DNA of 33,743 nucleotides from an uncultured Ruminococcus sp. (GTDB taxonomy: Bacteria; Bacillota; Clostridia; Oscillospirales; Ruminococcaceae). The position numbers and the translations under genes are program-made. The notes under the pieces are model-generated. The model saw only the letters and a list, made by a program, of their open reading frames with translations, made no database searches and had not been told where the DNA came from. The stretch lies in the NCBI GenBank assembly GCA_947345935.1, contig CAMZZN010000029.1:1-33743 (forward strand). Direction: 5' to 3'. Shown in pieces: positions 26,332 through 33,471 of the stretch (position 1 is the first letter of the stretch; each line of letters opens with the position of its first letter).

Positions 26332-27366
26332 ATGATTACAATCGAAAATTTAACGAAGTATTACGGCAAGAATAAAGCCGTTAATAATATCAGCTTTACG
26401 ATCAACGATAATGAGATTCTTGGTTTCCTGGGCCCGAACGGCGCCGGAAAATCCACGACGATGAATATGATTTCCGGTTTTCTGCCTATGTCTTCAGGAA
26501 CAGTCAGTATCTGCGGAACTGACATAACGAGAGATCCGGTAAAGGCAAAAAGGAATATTGGCTACCTTCCGGAAAATCCGCCCGTCTACCCCGATCTTAA
26601 GGTGTCTGAATACCTTTCATTCTGCGCAGGCCTTAAAGGAATTGCAAGAGACAGGCGCGGGGAGGAGATCAAGCGTGTGACGGAATTGTTAAATCTCGGT
26701 GACGTTTCCGGGAAGCTTATCCGCAACCTGTCAAAGGGCTATAAGCAGCGTGTGGGATTTGCACAGGCTCTTCTTGGAAATCCTAAGTTTATTATTCTGG
26801 ACGAGCCTACAGTCGGTCTTGACCCGAATCAGGTGATCGAGGTTAGAAGGCTTATAAAGAGCCTGAAAAAAGATCACACCGTTATTTTTAGTTCCCACAT
26901 CCTCAGCGAAGTAAGCGAGGTCTGCGACAGGGTAATAATTATCAACAAGGGCGACATAAGGGCGATAGACACTATTGAAAACCTGGAAAAGTCCTTCAAT
27001 GCAGCCATGAATCTTCATATTAAAGTAAAGGGTTCAAAGAGCCGGGCAGCTTCTATTATTGAAATTACCGACGGAATCAAAGAGATTGTTTCGATTGATG
27101 ACGAGGGCAGCGATATATGGTCGTTTGAGGTGATGCTTGACGGCGATACCGAGGATGTCCGTGACAGGCTTATGGCTGAACTGGTGAAGAATCATGTCAG
27201 CATTATGGAGATATATGCCGACAAGCCGAATCTTGAAAACGTCTTTATCGAGCTTATCAACCGCCCTGTTAAAAAGACGAGTTTGTCTGATCTCATAGAC
27301 GAGATAGTCCCTGAAAACGACGGAAGCGGCGATAATGACGGCGATGACGAACAGGAGGTAGAGTAA
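26332..27366 (+). CDS. ABC transporter ATP-binding protein (GldA-like)
   Basis: A 344-residue ATPase of the ABC-2 exporter type. Walker A GPNGAGKST (about residues 35-43), signature LSKGYKQR (about 133-140), Walker B FIILDEPTVGLD (about 152-163) and the switch His in IFSSHILSE are all intact. After the ATPase core lies a domain of about 110 residues ending in a very acidic tail (DGSGDNDGDDEQEVE). AAAGGAG precedes the ATG. It is the first gene of a four-gene operon; the permease ATG follows its stop with no gap. Confidence 0.95.
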   Translation: MITIENLTKYYGKNKAVNNISFTINDNEILGFLGPNGAGKSTTMNMISGFLPMSSGTVSICGTDITRDPVKAKRNIGYLPENPPVYPDLKVSEYLSFCAGLKGIARDRRGEEIKRVTELLNLGDVSGKLIRNLSKGYKQRVGFAQALLGNPKFIILDEPTVGLDPNQVIEVRRLIKSLKKDHTVIFSSHILSEVSEVCDRVIIINKGDIRAIDTIENLEKSFNAAMNLHIKVKGSKSRAASIIEITDGIKEIVSIDDEGSDIWSFEVMLDGDTEDVRDRLMAELVKNHVSIMEIYADKPNLENVFIELINRPVKKTSLSDLIDEIVPENDGSGDNDGDDEQEVE

Positions 27367-28113
27367 ATGTTTTCGATATATAAAAAGGAATTGCAGTCCT
27401 TTTTTTACACACCCTTTGCTTACGCACTGACTGCATTGTTTATGCTTCTTTTTACTTACATATTTGCAAACAAGATCGGTTCTCTAGAATCGGGCAATAC
27501 CGTTCTTGTGCCCTTTGTAAGTATATTCTATGACGTAATTTTCTTCTTTATGTTTCTGATACCTCTTATTACAATGAGAACGTTTGCCGACGAGCGAAAA
27601 TTCGGCACCGAAGTGCTGCTCATGAGTTCTCCTGTCAGCGTATTAAAAATCGTTATGGGAAAATTCTTTGCAAACATCACTGTTTTCATTTTCATGCTTG
27701 CAGGAACAGCGATCTTCCCGATAGTGACTCAGCATTATGCCGGAGAGGGCGGCGGAGTTATCGCCAGCCAGCTTATCTGCGCATATATAGGATTCTTCTT
27801 CTGGGGCGCAATGTTTATTACGCTTGGAATGTTGATCTCATCATTCACTGAAAGTTCCATTATTGCCGCTATTATCGGCGAGCTTGTAATGTTCGTATTC
27901 CTTTTCCTTGACGATTTCGCATATACGGCGTTTATTGAGCAGTATCCGAAGCTTCAGTCGGTACTCATTGCCTTTGCGGCTCAGTCAAGATTCCATTATT
28001 TCTCGCAGGGCGTTATCAGACGCTCCGATCTGATATTCTTTGTATCGGCAATAATCGTTCTTCTTTCATGGACTTATATCTCCATTGAAAAGAGACGCTG
28101 GAAGAGGGGGTAA
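27367..28113 (+). CDS. ABC-2 type permease (GldF-like)
   Basis: A 248-residue integral membrane protein with about six hydrophobic segments. The cytoplasmic N-terminus begins MFSIYKKELQSFFYTPFAY, and TMRTFADERKFGTEVLLMSSP near residues 70-90 is the conserved loop of the GldF/NosY-like ABC-2 permease group. AGGAGG in the end of the ATPase gene lies eight bases before the ATG, so the two are translationally coupled. It should form the membrane half of the transporter, probably as a homodimer. Confidence 0.93.
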   Translation: MFSIYKKELQSFFYTPFAYALTALFMLLFTYIFANKIGSLESGNTVLVPFVSIFYDVIFFFMFLIPLITMRTFADERKFGTEVLLMSSPVSVLKIVMGKFFANITVFIFMLAGTAIFPIVTQHYAGEGGGVIASQLICAYIGFFFWGAMFITLGMLISSFTESSIIAAIIGELVMFVFLFLDDFAYTAFIEQYPKLQSVLIAFAAQSRFHYFSQGVIRRSDLIFFVSAIIVLLSWTYISIEKRRWKRG

Positions 28114-28119
28114 ACTTTG

Positions 28120-29691
28120 ATGGAAAAGAAAAAAGAAGCTGTAAATCTTGATAAGGCAAAAAAGAAAAAGATAAATCTTTCAGGTCCGATAGCTTTCGTA
28201 ATGGCATTTCTGGTGCTTCTGGTGTTTGTTCCTGTTAATCTTATCGTAAGCTATTATGATGATTTTTACGATATGACTCCCAACAAGAAGTACACGCTTG
28301 ATCCTGTGACTGTAAAGCTTATTGAGGATAACAAAGATAAAGATATAGAGATCTATTTCCTGGCAGAACTTCGGGGACTCAAGGAAGATCCGTCCACGCT
28401 TCCGCTTTATCATACACTTACAAGACTTGATAAGTATGACAACGTCAAGCTCACCTGTTTTGAACCCGACGACGATCCTACGCTGGCGCAGTCTCTTGAT
28501 CCTACGGGCATACACGGCATCAGCCGTGCGGATATATTCGTCAAGTGCGGCGATGTTATCAAGAAGGTCAATAAGCGTATGATATTTCAGAATTACAATG
28601 AGGAAAACGGCACATCTGACTATTCCGGCGAGGAGCAGATAGCAAACGCCGTCAAGATCGTTACAAACGGCTCGCTTCCGACAGTATATTTCCTGACAGG
28701 ACACGGTGAAAAGTCTATTGAGGATTCTTACCTTGAATACGCAAATCACCTCAAGGCAAATACCTATGATGCGAAAGAACTGAATCTTGACAAAGCCGGA
28801 GCTGTTCCGTCGGATGCGGAGATCATCTGTATTGCCGGACCGAGGAATGATATTACCGACAAGGAGAGAGAGCTTCTTGAAGGTTATCTCAGCGATCCGG
28901 CAAATCCCGGTTCCGTTTCATTTTTCATGTCTCCCTGCGATACGGAGGGAACTTTTGACAACATCGAAAGCATTCTCTATGACTATGGTCTTACAATGGA
29001 CTATAATATTGTCAAGGAAACAAATACGATCAATATGCTCAATGACAGAAACAACCAGCAGCTTCCTGAATTCATGAGGATACATTATATGCTCCCGTCG
29101 GAAGATCTTAAGGTCGATCTCACCACCGATGTTATAACTCTCTGTAACGAGGGCGGTCTGACAGCGGGTATCTCCAATACACGAAGCATCGGAAGAATTG
29201 ACGACGATAAATTTCCGGAATATGAACAGTTTGAACGTGCTTCGATCATTGAGAATATTCCTGAAACTACCGAATCTGACGACGGTATAGCAGCCAATGT
29301 AAGCTATTCTACGGAGAGTTTTGCAATGGGCGGTGACAAGAGTACTGCCGCTCAGGCAGAAAGACTTACCGGACAGCAGCTTGCATATGCATATTATTCG
29401 CATAATAAGAAAAACAACAGCAAAATTGTTGTTTTCGGTTCGACTGATATGATCGACGGAGATATGCTTTCCGATTCTGTAAGCGCCACAAATATGCTTG
29501 CACTTTTCTCAAATACATGGCTTTATGATACCGAAGTTTCCGCCGGCGTTAATGTCAAGAAAGAAGCGATAGACAAGATGACTTTCAAAGATGCAAAGGA
29601 AGCTACGACGGCTATTGCTATTACCGTTATCGTTCCGATATGCGTTGCAGTTTTCGGCGTTGTTGTATGGCTCAGGAGACGTCACGCATAA
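28120..29691 (+). CDS. GldG-like ABC transporter auxiliary protein
   Basis: A 523-residue protein anchored by an N-terminal TM helix (about residues 25-47) and a C-terminal TM helix (about 498-516) ending RRRHA. The large extracytoplasmic middle has the GldG/ABC_transp_aux features: NKKYTLDPVTVKLI after the first helix, then a VYFLTGHGEKS segment near residue 192. ATG 28120 is chosen because GAGGGGG is nine bases upstream; the TTG just before it is less likely. It starts 6 bp after the permease gene. In Bacteroidetes GldA/F/G support gliding and type IX secretion, but in this Gram-positive setting the substrate is unknown. Confidence 0.88.
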   Translation: MEKKKEAVNLDKAKKKKINLSGPIAFVMAFLVLLVFVPVNLIVSYYDDFYDMTPNKKYTLDPVTVKLIEDNKDKDIEIYFLAELRGLKEDPSTLPLYHTLTRLDKYDNVKLTCFEPDDDPTLAQSLDPTGIHGISRADIFVKCGDVIKKVNKRMIFQNYNEENGTSDYSGEEQIANAVKIVTNGSLPTVYFLTGHGEKSIEDSYLEYANHLKANTYDAKELNLDKAGAVPSDAEIICIAGPRNDITDKERELLEGYLSDPANPGSVSFFMSPCDTEGTFDNIESILYDYGLTMDYNIVKETNTINMLNDRNNQQLPEFMRIHYMLPSEDLKVDLTTDVITLCNEGGLTAGISNTRSIGRIDDDKFPEYEQFERASIIENIPETTESDDGIAANVSYSTESFAMGGDKSTAAQAERLTGQQLAYAYYSHNKKNNSKIVVFGSTDMIDGDMLSDSVSATNMLALFSNTWLYDTEVSAGVNVKKEAIDKMTFKDAKEATTAIAITVIVPICVAVFGVVVWLRRRHA

Positions 29692-29716
29692 TAAGCATAT
29701 TTTAGGAGCTGAAAAA

Positions 29717-31111
29717 ATGAAAAAAATTATTATCTCATTTCTGATACTTCTTATAGCTGCCGGAGGATCTCTGGGAATTTACATGAATATCAGAAGCAAA
29801 AATGAAAAAGAAACGAAAAAACAACAGGAAAAAGTTGCCGATCTTCAGCTGTTCAGCTTTGCTTCCGATACCATTGATAAAATCGTTATAAATAATCCCG
29901 ACGCCAGTTATACGGCTGAGCTTCAGGATGACAGATGGGTTCTTACAGACGGCGGCGACTTTGATCTTGATAATGAATATATGGAACTTATCCGCAGCTA
30001 TTTTTCAACGCTGACAGCTGCCGGAAAACATACTGGCGATCTTGCGGATTACGCCCTTGATGACGAGCACGTAAGCACAGTCACCCTCAGCGGCGGCGGT
30101 CAAAGCTACACTGTAAGTATAGGCGGTATTTCCCCCACGAAAGAATATTATTACGTTATGGTTGCCGGAAAACCGGACATCTACTCGGTTGAATCTGTTT
30201 ATGGCAGCGGCAGTAATTTCAGCACGGAAAAAATGATGCTTAAATCAAAGGATCTTGTTCCGTATGACGATGACGAAATTGAACGTATTACTGCGATAAA
30301 AGACGGCAAGGTTACGTTTGATCTGACGTACGACCAGGAGAGCGGCGAATGGAGTCTGCCGGAAGAGTATTCAGATTTCGGGTTTGATATAACGGCTGTT
30401 ACATCTATGATAAATGTACTCACACGTCTCCAGGCAGAGCAGATGCTTGACGAGAATCTTGAGGATATGGAAAAATATGGTTTTGACGATCCGTATGCCG
30501 AGGTGATAATAAAGGGAAAAGACGGCACGGAACGTCATATTATTGCAGGAGATTTCTCCGAGGACGGAACTTATGCAAATCTGCTCGTTTATAACAGCGG
30601 CAGCGAGGATAAAAATCAAGTGGAGGTATATTATAAATCAGATGTTGATTTTGTGGATTATACTCCTATCGACTTCATAACCACAACGGTGTATAATCCC
30701 AGTCAGTATGATGTCAGCAGGTTTAAGGTTTCATATGACGGGAAAGAGTACGAATTTATCATGGATCAGGAGCAGAAAAAATGTCAGTATAACGGACAGA
30801 CCATTCAACTGGCGGTTCAGAACATTCTGACCGAATTTACCAATTACTACAATTCCTTCTCTATATACGTGGTGAAAAGGCTTGATCTTGAAGCTGAGCC
30901 TGAATTAAAAGACCCGCTGCTTTCTGTTGAATATGATCTCACAGACGGAACAAAGAGAACGTATCAGCTTACCGATGCCGGAAATCAGCAGTGCTATGTA
31001 TTTATTGACGGCAAGTATACGGGCGAGATAGTCAGCGACAGCAGTCTTATCGGAAACAGTTCAGTTCAGAATTATTTTGATATTCTCTGCAAGCAAGCAG
31101 ATATCAGTTAA
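29717..31111 (+). CDS. DUF4340 membrane-anchored extracytoplasmic protein
   Basis: A 464-residue protein with an N-terminal TM/signal anchor (about residues 4-23), a short Lys/Glu-rich linker and a beta-rich extracytoplasmic region. The DUF4340 pattern is seen near residues 70-90 (DDRWVLTDGGDFDLDNEY) and in the repeat-like later segment YGFDDPYAEVIIKG. AGGAG lies eight bases before ATG 29717; a longer frame starting upstream would overlap the GldG-like gene and lacks a ribosome binding site. DUF4340 genes commonly follow GldG-like genes, so it is probably part of the transporter complex. It is followed by a terminator-like hairpin. Confidence 0.88.
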   Translation: MKKIIISFLILLIAAGGSLGIYMNIRSKNEKETKKQQEKVADLQLFSFASDTIDKIVINNPDASYTAELQDDRWVLTDGGDFDLDNEYMELIRSYFSTLTAAGKHTGDLADYALDDEHVSTVTLSGGGQSYTVSIGGISPTKEYYYVMVAGKPDIYSVESVYGSGSNFSTEKMMLKSKDLVPYDDDEIERITAIKDGKVTFDLTYDQESGEWSLPEEYSDFGFDITAVTSMINVLTRLQAEQMLDENLEDMEKYGFDDPYAEVIIKGKDGTERHIIAGDFSEDGTYANLLVYNSGSEDKNQVEVYYKSDVDFVDYTPIDFITTTVYNPSQYDVSRFKVSYDGKEYEFIMDQEQKKCQYNGQTIQLAVQNILTEFTNYYNSFSIYVVKRLDLEAEPELKDPLLSVEYDLTDGTKRTYQLTDAGNQQCYVFIDGKYTGEIVSDSSLIGNSSVQNYFDILCKQADIS

Positions 31112-31131: not shown

Positions 31132-31160
31132 AAGGGAGGGCAGAACCTCCCTTGATTTTT
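31132..31160 (+). terminator. Terminator/attenuator between DUF4340 and the toxin-like gene
   Basis: AAGGGAGG (31132-31139) pairs with CCTCCCTT (31146-31153) around a 6-nt loop and is followed by GATTTTT. The next ribosome binding site begins directly after the T tract and the ATG is 14 nt away, leaving no room for a promoter, so downstream genes depend on read-through or an upstream internal promoter. Confidence 0.75.
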
Positions 31161-31174
31161 AAGGAGTCAAGTTT

Positions 31175-31639
31175 ATGAGCAATAAGATCAAAGGTCTTGC
31201 CATATCCGGAGCGTCTGCGTTTATTATCCTGATTGCAGCGATTTTTGGAATAAATCTTTCGTCCGATAAGGATACTAAGACGTCTGATACTTCGGATACA
31301 GCTGTAATAACAACAGCCGCAAAGGAGACAGAGACTAATGCATCGGATGATGATTATGTTGAATATCATTTCAGAACAGAAAAGCTGAGGGATGACCATT
31401 TCAGTAAGCACGGCGTGGAGTTCAGCATCGGTTTTGATTACGAGACCGCCGAGGATTACGAAAAGGGCGCAAGTGACGTTATAAATGATCCTGATGCGCT
31501 GTATAAAACAGAGGCAGAGGACGGAGACGGAATTTATTATATTGAAGAATCAAACGAATTTGTTGTTTTGTCCACGGACGGTTATATCAGGACGTATTTC
31601 AGACCAGGCGGAAGAAAAGCATACTTTGACAGGCAATAG
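31175..31639 (+). CDS. Membrane-anchored protein with a polymorphic-toxin-like RNase domain (putative)
   Basis: A 154-residue protein. An N-terminal signal anchor (about residues 9-27) is followed by a Thr/Ser/Asp-rich linker (about 30-60) and a compact domain (about 63-154). The domain reads FRTEKLRDDHFSKHGVEF, then a TAEDYEKGA helix, a DPDALYKTE turn and strands with NEFVVLSTDGYIRTYF, ending YFDRQ. From memory this resembles C-terminal RNase domains of polymorphic toxins of the BECR type, where a His/Lys pair and a Thr/Ser near the last strands are catalytic; here His75, Lys78, His79, Lys111, Thr134, Arg139 and Thr140 are candidates. This assignment is inference. AAGGAG precedes the ATG. 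No immunity-like gene is adjacent: uvrC starts 11 bp later. Confidence 0.6.
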   Translation: MSNKIKGLAISGASAFIILIAAIFGINLSSDKDTKTSDTSDTAVITTAAKETETNASDDDYVEYHFRTEKLRDDHFSKHGVEFSIGFDYETAEDYEKGASDVINDPDALYKTEAEDGDGIYYIEESNEFVVLSTDGYIRTYFRPGGRKAYFDRQ

Positions 31640-31650
31640 GCGGTGTAAAA

Positions 31651-33471
31651 ATGAATCCAAGACTTCCATATCTCCGTGAGAAAACCTCAAAGCTTACAGT
31701 TTCTCCCGGAGTGTATATAATGAAAAATCGGGAAAGCGCTATAATCTATATCGGAAAGGCAAAAAATCTTCATAACAGGGTAAGCAGCTATTTCCGTGAA
31801 AATCCTGACCATACCCCGAAAGTGGCAGCAATGGTGTCGAATGTTTTTGACTATGATTTTATTGTCACCGACAGTGAATATGAAGCTCTTCTTCTCGAAT
31901 GCAGTCTTATCAAGCAGCACAAGCCGAAATATAATATCCTGCTGAAGGATGACAAAGGATATCACTATATACGCATCTCTGACGGAGAATTTCCGAGGAT
32001 AACCACGGAAAAAAACACCAAAGAGAGCGGAAAGTACCTTGGACCGTATACAAGCGGATTTATCACAAGGGAAGCGGTAAATGAAGCCAACCGGGTATTC
32101 ATGCTGCCAACTTGCACACGTGTTTTTCCACGTGACTTCGGTAAAGGCAGACCATGCCTGAATTATCATATCAAAACCTGTATGGGTCTTTGCCGGGGAA
32201 AGATAAGCCGTGAGGAGTATAGAAATACCATTGCACAGGCAGTAGAATTCATAAAAAGCGGCAGCGCTGATTCAGTGGAACGTATGCGTCAGGAAATGGA
32301 AGAAGCATCGGAAAATCTTGATTTTGAGAAAGCAGCCCTGCTTCGTGACAGGATAACCGCAGTAAAAAAGGCGTCGGAGAAGCAGAAGATCATCAACAGC
32401 GTAGTGGACTCTGCGGACGTTGTCGGGATCGCAGAATTTTACGACGGGGTATATGTTTCCGTGCTGATGTATCGTGAAAGCCGGCTGTACGATAAGGCAG
32501 TATTTGAATTTGAAAAGCCGGACTCCGGGGATGATATTTTAAGTTCGTTCCTTATGCAGTTTTATTATGGCAGAAGCGATATTCCGAAATTAGTCGTGAC
32601 CGATCGGCTGCCGACGGATTACAGGCTTCTGGAAGAACTTATGGAAAAACAGTCCGGGCATAAGGTAAAGTTTCATGTTCCGCAGAAAGGAAAGCAATCG
32701 GAGCTTCTTCGTCTGGCAAAGAATAACAGCGCCGAATATGCAGCGCTGAAAAACAACCGTACGGGCAAAGAGGTTATTGCTCTGGAGCAGCTGGGCAGAA
32801 GTCTGGGGCTTAAAAAGCCACCGAAATATATCGAGGCATATGATATCTCAAATCTCTCGTCTGAATCCATGGTTGCGGGAATGGTCGTGTTTGAGGACGG
32901 CAGACCTCTGAAAAAGGCGTATAAACGCTTTACGATAAAGGAACAGCAGTATCAGAACGACTACGGCAGTATGCAGGAGACTCTGCGGCGCAGGCTTATT
33001 CATATCGTTACCGGGGAAGGGGACGAATATTTTACCCGTGTTCCCGATCTTATCCTTCTTGACGGCGGAAGTGGGCACGTTCATGCAGTTGAACCGGTAA
33101 TACGTGAACTGGGACTGAATATCCCGGTTTTCGGAATGGTCAAGGACAACAAGCATCGTACCCGTGCTATTGCCACAGGGGGCATGGAGATCCAGATAAA
33201 CGAAATGAAATCCGTATTCAATCTGGTCACCAGGATACAGGACGAAGTGCATCGCTTTTCCGTGAGCTTCATGCATTCAAGGCATAAGAAAAAAAACTAT
33301 GCCTCCGAGCTGACAAGCGTCCGGGGGATAGGTGAAAAAAAAGCGGCAAAGCTTATGATGAAGTACAAAACAAAGGAAAATCTCGGCTGCGCATCACCGG
33401 AGGAACTTGCAGCAGCGGCAGGAGTTTCCGCTGAGACCGGGCAAGAACTCTGGAATCTTATCCACAGTTGA
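31651..33471 (+). CDS. uvrC: Excinuclease ABC subunit C
   Basis: A 606-residue nuclease that makes both incisions in nucleotide excision repair, acting with UvrA and UvrB. The N-terminal GIY-YIG domain (GVYIMK, then IIYIGKAKNL, about residues 20-42) makes the 3' cut. A UVR motif for UvrB binding (ENLDFEKAALLRDRI) is near 212-226. The RNase H-like domain with DLILLDGG and the C-terminal double helix-hairpin-helix (LTSVRGIGEKKAAKL near 550) follow. Length is normal. A weak AGGCGGTG precedes the ATG. It is 11 bp after the toxin-like gene and probably shares its transcript. Confidence 0.98.
   Translation: MNPRLPYLREKTSKLTVSPGVYIMKNRESAIIYIGKAKNLHNRVSSYFRENPDHTPKVAAMVSNVFDYDFIVTDSEYEALLLECSLIKQHKPKYNILLKDDKGYHYIRISDGEFPRITTEKNTKESGKYLGPYTSGFITREAVNEANRVFMLPTCTRVFPRDFGKGRPCLNYHIKTCMGLCRGKISREEYRNTIAQAVEFIKSGSADSVERMRQEMEEASENLDFEKAALLRDRITAVKKASEKQKIINSVVDSADVVGIAEFYDGVYVSVLMYRESRLYDKAVFEFEKPDSGDDILSSFLMQFYYGRSDIPKLVVTDRLPTDYRLLEELMEKQSGHKVKFHVPQKGKQSELLRLAKNNSAEYAALKNNRTGKEVIALEQLGRSLGLKKPPKYIEAYDISNLSSESMVAGMVVFEDGRPLKKAYKRFTIKEQQYQNDYGSMQETLRRRLIHIVTGEGDEYFTRVPDLILLDGGSGHVHAVEPVIRELGLNIPVFGMVKDNKHRTRAIATGGMEIQINEMKSVFNLVTRIQDEVHRFSVSFMHSRHKKKNYASELTSVRGIGEKKAAKLMMKYKTKENLGCASPEELAAAAGVSAETGQELWNLIHS

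Follow-up and report, generated by a model that had tools for sequence, protein, structure and literature searches.

An open reading frame upstream of uvrC in a Ruminococcus genome encodes a membrane-anchored protein whose C-terminal domain is homologous to the RNase of a CdiA toxin, and the gene lies in most genomes of the genus with no CPCC immunity gene beside it. We give about an even chance to the reading that the protein is an RNase tethered to the membrane outside the cytoplasm, with a role that is conserved and non-antagonistic, RNase activity being predicted. On this reading, a ribonuclease of the kind seen in colicin D and in the CdiA C-terminal toxin (CdiA-CT) of PDB entry 8EY4 would be held by a short tether at the outer face of the cytoplasmic membrane, and RNA reaching the space between membrane and wall, whether released by lysed neighbours, present in rumen or gut fluid or arriving otherwise, would be cut there. 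A tethered RNase would stay on its producer and would not be delivered into other cells, the gene serving the cell itself instead of forming a toxin cassette; because the domain would act outside the cytoplasm, the cell could keep it without the CPCC immunity protein. Catalysis, the substrate and a scavenging or clearing role are what we infer for the domain. Bacteria of the Ruminococcus flavefaciens group may accordingly handle RNA at their surface.

The window, by which we mean the whole stretch of 33,743 nt that was analysed, comes from a source genome of 2.73 Mb that is 99.98% complete (G000). The reading frame in it is real, with 154 codons, ATG at 31175 and TAG at 31639. The features of the region are as follows.

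31132..31153, + strand: terminator-like hairpin in the interval between the DUF4340 gene and the tethered gene (weak evidence, from shuffles)
31161..31166, + strand: Shine-Dalgarno sequence AAGGAG (from the sequence)
31175..31639, + strand: open reading frame of 154 aa, membrane-anchored, with a C-terminal toxin-type RNase-like domain (reading frame and homologues)
31175..31258, + strand: N-terminal signal anchor, residues about 1-28 (sequence, and a script run on orthologues)
31259..31354, + strand: Thr/Asp-rich tether, residues 29-60 (8 Thr and 7 Asp in 32 residues)
31355..31636, + strand: RNase-like domain, residues 61-154, the 94 residues at the C-terminal end of the protein (homology to the CdiA toxin chain of 8EY4)
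31397..31420, + strand: HxxKHxxE motif with H75, K78, H79 and E82, candidate catalytic part (orthologue conservation)
31589..31594, + strand: R139-T140, with T140 the candidate Ser/Thr of the BECR/colicin D motif (orthologue conservation)
31651..33471, + strand: uvrC, a recurrent neighbour, 11 nt past the stop of the tethered gene (Pfam)

The motifs that a sequence-only reading had quoted are present as written in this frame, as are the signal anchor and the Thr/Asp-rich linker (8 Thr and 7 Asp in residues 29-60) that it had described; its statement that the domain is not attached to a delivery protein also held, as the anchor and tether alone precede it. Positions 26332-31111, upstream, are occupied by an ABC transporter operon (ATPase, ABC-2 permease, ABC_transp_aux protein and DUF4340 protein), which is kept in a few relatives (L032, L040, L049 and L050). 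The DUF4340 gene is the last gene of that operon by Pfam, and the hairpin (1 observed, against a mean of 0.6 in shuffled sequences) may separate it from the tethered gene. Spacing and recurring gene order suggest that the tethered gene and uvrC are co-transcribed.

When the protein was compared as a single sequence with all PDB sequences, residues 74-154 matched 8EY4_A at E 1.7e-5, with the second-best match at E 0.64. A profile of 23 tethered relatives matched the same chain at E 2.5e-9 and a 13-member family profile at E 1.1e-18, so that the kinship with polymorphic-toxin RNases proposed earlier is supported by homology to a solved CdiA toxin chain. Chain A has the PDB title 'PT-VENN domain-containing protein', and the entry is probably the toxin-immunity complex of E. 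coli O32:H37. The CdiA toxin of that strain is a colicin D-like, non-specific RNase that needs EF-Tu in vitro, and its immunity protein holds Fe3+ by cysteines (PMC12585627). The source genome has a second copy of the domain, at the C-terminus of an RHS protein (contig C75); it shares H75, H79, Y122, N127, T140, Y150 and Q154 with the window copy, and the candidate residues H...H and Thr are common to the RHS copy and the 8EY4_A alignment. Homologues at E <= 0.01 numbered 696 (best 120 listed), and among the 80 of 394 relatives listed those with names were mostly Ruminococcus flavefaciens and uncultured Ruminococcus.

Profile databases gave fainter signals. The domain alone scored 13.2 bits against Pfam Colicin_D (PF11429), below the cut-off of 25 (E 0.12); seven of the 23 tethered relatives matched that model at E <= 1 (best 0.0098), and none of 13 domain sequences of the family did so at E <= 0.1. 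One of these 13 gave a weak Pfam match to PBECR3 (E 0.0064), NCBIfam gave no match for the domain, and for this domain family all Pfam and NCBIfam scores stayed below the model cut-offs. Comparison by hhalign with a colicin D-domain protein of the same genome returned low probabilities (2.8 with the tethered alignment, 17.7 with the mixed family alignment), despite which both placed the motif in a consistent register; these comparisons carry no weight for family membership. Taken with 8EY4, the weak Colicin_D and PBECR3 matches suggest a BECR fold, a class named in the available text of PMC9086364. In the open-access PMC literature, titles and opening lines of abstracts described no such surface family. 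The kind of enzyme is already known, and its tethered, immunity-free setting is what is unusual.

Conservation was assessed over 94 distinct proteins from 141 loci, with identical proteins collapsed. Loss of the candidate His, Lys and Thr residues across orthologues had been named beforehand as a refuting condition, and in all 94 proteins H75, K78, H79, R139 and T140 were invariant (E82 in 93/94). The aligned toxin forms carry T or S at the T140 position. In excerpts of PMC3482391, the Tox-Colicin D motif is given as [KH]K, Hxx[ED] and [ST], and the essential residues of colicin D as K607, K608, H611, D614 and S677. The alignment register sets H79xxE82 on H611xxD614 and H75 on K607, and by our own reading T140 would correspond to S677. 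At the K608 position the orthologues have Phe (91/94) or Trp (3/94) and no Lys, and a check against the Pfam Colicin_D motif likewise found H75, HxxE and T present with the second Lys replaced by Phe/Trp. The replacement at K608, the Colicin_D score below cut-off and the fast divergence of two loci (L040 and L050, below) count against the tethered RNase.

We consider it unlikely, with a modest chance of being right, that the domain lost its RNase activity, or never had any, and is instead an envelope module with a structural task or one in binding RNA, wall polymer or protein. The invariant positions (33 of the 94 in the domain) extend beyond the candidate catalytic ones and would fit a conserved interaction surface; the unmatched K608, the guard that was not retained and the PepSY lipoprotein that comes next in 25/83 carriers point the same way. 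Against such a module, H79, E82 and T140 (in register with H611, D614 and S677), together with H75, are kept across very different tethers.

A script working on sequence patterns assigned a lipobox to 56 of the 94 orthologues, a TM helix to 36 and neither to 2, which gives 92/94 with an export-type N-terminus; with a looser anchor pattern the numbers were 60, 33 and 1. The anchor of the window copy is a TM helix, seen as a hydrophobic N-terminal stretch with two Lys ahead of it, and one relative (L215) carries the domain on choline-binding repeats. As the anchors alternate between lipobox and TM helix, the domain should lie outside the membrane, and the attachment of one domain to exchangeable anchors argues that exposure there has been selected. 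The tether differs in length and sequence between orthologues, the residues preceding the domain ranging from 30 (a contig-end fragment) to 153, with a median of 109. The window copy, with about 60, is the shortest except for the contig-end fragment, so short that its domain should remain near the membrane. The location also raises an objection to the RNase reading: should 8EY4 indeed be the O32:H37 enzyme, it needs EF-Tu in vitro, whereas a surface domain would normally have no contact with EF-Tu. In three further proteins (L099, L100 and L101) a treble-clef zinc domain stands ahead of the TM helix (PF13451 from Pfam for L099), and these may join a cytosolic zinc domain to an RNase-like domain outside.

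The tethered gene was found in 83/100 Ruminococcus genomes and in 51/55 of those that are near-complete (completeness of 90% or more, contamination of 5% or less). The 100 genomes contain 90 copies, a count that leaves out two fragments, and 76 of the 83 carrier genomes have a single copy. As four near-complete genomes lack it, the gene is not essential; all four keep uvrC, and in two of them the order is uvrC-rsmD-coaD with the tethered gene absent. Among 61 genus loci, the gene lay directly upstream of uvrC in 22 (gaps of 5-65 nt, median 11), touched or overlapped uvrC in one more (L060), and was 0.2-3.5 kb ahead of it in 13. Seven loci had it between a ybaK-like gene and rsmD, nine had a PepSY lipoprotein next and uvrC not near, and nine had other surroundings. 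Across the genus, a PepSY-domain lipoprotein (named by Pfam for one representative) directly follows the tethered gene in 25/83 carriers, 13-182 nt past the end of the domain. This frequency rules it out as an obligatory partner; a functional partnership is possible.

Outside the genus, the full protein found matches in 24/247 genomes of the family, four of these 24 being genus members, and at least two of the matches from other genera lay in long toxin-type frames. The domain profile matched in 11/295 genomes of the order and 6/398 of the phylum, own genome included; these matches comprise tethered and toxin forms, and at least two look like chance. Two chance-like matches (L192 and L199) were dropped. 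In two records titled Alistipes (L110 and L166) a tethered gene is present with 75% identity over residues 58/60-154, and these are probably mislabelled or mixed metagenome bins.

Substitution rates were compared in 15 pairs drawn from 60 possible loci. Over these pairs dN was 0.02-0.25 for the domain, 0.03-0.21 for UvrC and 0.15-0.84 for anchor plus tether, and in 13/15 the domain evolved within about 1.5-fold of the UvrC rate, or slower. The other two pairs (L040 and L050) are exceptions: there the domain has diverged at about three times the UvrC rate, and the tether is hardly quicker than the domain. The closest pair (L032) had a domain dN of 0.022 and a dS of 0.338, dS being saturated in most pairs. 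The domain is under purifying selection. Polymorphic-toxin domains turn over rapidly and need an immunity gene, whereas this one is slow, near-universal in the genus and without linked immunity.

The same domain also ends RHS proteins, phage Mu F-like proteins (L219 and L220, by Pfam) and other, partly phage-type proteins. A clear toxin form was present in 3/100 genus genomes (G000, G091 and G098), each time with an adjoining CPCC gene. At one toxin locus (L191), a CPCC stretch shares an open frame with the domain and matches 8EY4 chain I, the partner of toxin chain A, at E 3.5e-17. A CPCC model built from four proteins (from L002, L188, L191 and the tethered L196) found a Cys-rich CPCC gene next to 10 of 11 toxin-form loci (L002, L186, L187, L188, L189, L190, L191, L211, L212 and L219), of which three had contributed to the model and seven were independent; the eleventh, L198, a weak family member, was the sole one with no CPCC match. 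Outside this count stand 15 further proteins and two long or partial family matches (G207 and G125).

No CPCC-type gene lies in the 33,743-nt window, where the downstream neighbour is uvrC. With the 10/11 toxin-form loci as a control, none of 61 genus neighbourhoods of the tethered form (740 kb; the window and 60 other copies) had one, and a survey of homologues for domain fusions and neighbouring immunity genes thereby agrees with the earlier remark that no immunity gene is in evidence. The same was true of 80 named neighbourhoods, largely on the same contigs as the 61, and of another 12 copies, tethered or wall-bound, from a set of 14 loci; a single one of these belongs to the genus, and for nine the flank covered was just 1.5 kb. 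Alongside this absence of CPCC, a linked immunity protein of another kind may be conceived of. Elsewhere in the genome, 25/51 near-complete carriers had a CPCC match at E 0.01 and 19/51 at 1e-10, leaving 26 and 32 with no match. As an unlinked immunity gene such a copy was rejected, as its presence showed no association with the tethered gene in six comparisons (Fisher p 0.17 to 1.0; near-complete carriers against the four non-carriers, 0.61 at E 0.01 and 1.0 at 1e-10).

These counts bear on a second alternative, in which the domain is an antagonistic toxin that is shed or presented, enters neighbouring cells and cuts their RNA, as in SitA or CDI, with an immunity protein that is unlinked or of another kind. 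Homology with polymorphic-toxin tails speaks for it, as do relatives, tethered in L213 and secreted in L225, whose gene is immediately followed by one for CPCC, a CPCC match somewhere in about half of the near-complete carriers (25/51 at E 0.01) and the existence of lipoprotein toxins such as SitA (consulted sections of PMC5562445). We nevertheless judge it quite unlikely: 0/61 genus loci have a linked CPCC gene, and in 26/51 near-complete carriers the search at E 0.01 gave no CPCC match. A near-core, slow domain behind a variable N-terminal part is the reverse of a polymorphic toxin, there is no delivery domain, and the roughly 60 residues ahead of the window domain would be unlikely to span a thick wall. 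The features that mark polymorphic toxins are thus lacking, as no carrier or delivery domain was seen, the domain is conserved while the N-terminus varies, and none of the 61 loci has a linked CPCC gene.

The tethered RNase, which we prefer, can be set beside several known systems. Barnase is an exported RNase whose inhibitor is barstar; the Ruminococcus protein would resemble it in being exported and, provided that it has the BECR fold, in its class of RNase, and differs in being tethered rather than released and in having no CPCC inhibitor gene linked. With the CdiA-CT/CPCC pair of 8EY4 it shares homology over residues 74-154, the HxxKH...T pattern and the C-terminal position, but a CdiA carrier is absent, the tether would place the domain outside the membrane of the cell that makes it, and CPCC is not linked. 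The RHS and phage Mu F-type toxins (C75; L219 and L220) belong to the same domain family, yet have long carriers and adjoining CPCC genes and occur in 3/100 genus genomes as against 83/100 for the tethered form. The Colicin D tRNase domain (PF11429) has like positions of Hxx[ED] and [ST] (motif from the same excerpts of PMC3482391), whereas our domain falls below the Pfam cut-off, lacks Lys at the K608 position and is not a colicin. Myxobacterial SitA likewise has a nuclease-type C-terminal domain on a lipoprotein, as 56/94 orthologues here have a lipobox; according to the accessible part of PMC5562445, SitA is polymorphic, has SitI immunity and travels by outer membrane exchange, whereas the window copy has a TM anchor, a single membrane and no linked CPCC immunity.

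Surface forms with a guard do occur. In a member of the same phylum (L196/L213) a TM-tethered version has a CPCC gene 12 nt downstream, and a secreted version (L225, MT836265.1, 7324-8223) has one 9 nt downstream. The L225 record is labelled 'Bacteriophage sp.' and, read by eye, looks like a bacterial chromosome (lgt, folD, argG and argH). At another locus (L195/L217) a DUF3737-CPCC fusion gene lies directly upstream of the domain gene. That L213 and L225 have CPCC counts against a non-antagonistic role, as toxin-immunity pairs may persist among the surface forms. It further suggests an early guard in the surface lineage, later lost from the Ruminococcus line, since these surface relatives retain a CPCC gene behind them, and it makes the domestication of a toxin domain directly testable.

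An unrooted tree was built of 49 rows, 24 surface and 25 toxin, leaving out P0139 (damaged motif region) and L225. All surface forms fell on one side of a single branch, apart from the toxins, with support of 98/96; long-branch warnings applied to L186, L191, L197, L198 and P0138, and L198 joins beside the surface group. A surface group minus L196 was likewise not rejected (p-AU 0.22). The best reading is that the tethered domain is derived from, or sister to, toxin RNases, and since the tree is unrooted the domain may be either domesticated or ancestral, with L213 and L225 leaning towards loss of a guard in the Ruminococcus line. A fuller scenario, in which a toxin-immunity pair became a standing component of the envelope, with the RNase outside, CPCC dropped in Ruminococcus and the PepSY lipoprotein as a possible extracytoplasmic regulator, is tentative and in our view possible but doubtful. 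It would make these proteins a class of tethered surface ribonucleases, free of immunity genes, that process RNA on fibre-degrading gut bacteria.

A barrier against invading elements, in which the tethered nuclease would attack RNA, or the nucleic acid of phages or plasmids, during its passage through the envelope, would suit a domain presumably located where incoming nucleic acid passes, and PHROG superinfection-exclusion families weakly match some members. We regard it as very unlikely. The PHROG matches in P0062 and P0095 cover anchor and tether and end before or at the start of the domain core, 13 family members gave no PADLOC match, the nearest solved relative is an RNase toxin whereas most phages carry DNA, and the domain hardly diversifies. 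A superinfection-exclusion identity was dropped, the match being to anchor and tether only in the members inspected singly. With PHROG 15528 (phage portal protein), 22/23 members matched at E <= 1 (best 2.3e-6), and in five proteins inspected singly the match starts in the tether and runs through the domain, which we take to mean that the phage protein has a related tail. Of 25 pattern matches in IMG/VR none was a relative, and INPHARED gave one match, on a chromosome-like piece (L225).

Six Ruminococcus proteins with a CPCC domain (L204, L205, L206, L207, L208 and L210) are about 80-90 or 208-222 aa long. In all but L204, the gene immediately ahead encodes a polysaccharide-type ABC exporter ATPase, and no toxin is seen nearby, so CPCC is not solely an immunity domain. 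On contig C75 (L002, 3673-6918), the RHS protein ending in the domain is followed by a CPCC gene and then by a reading frame with a full Colicin_D domain (PF11429, E 2.2e-29), a locus that looks like an array of toxin tail cassettes.
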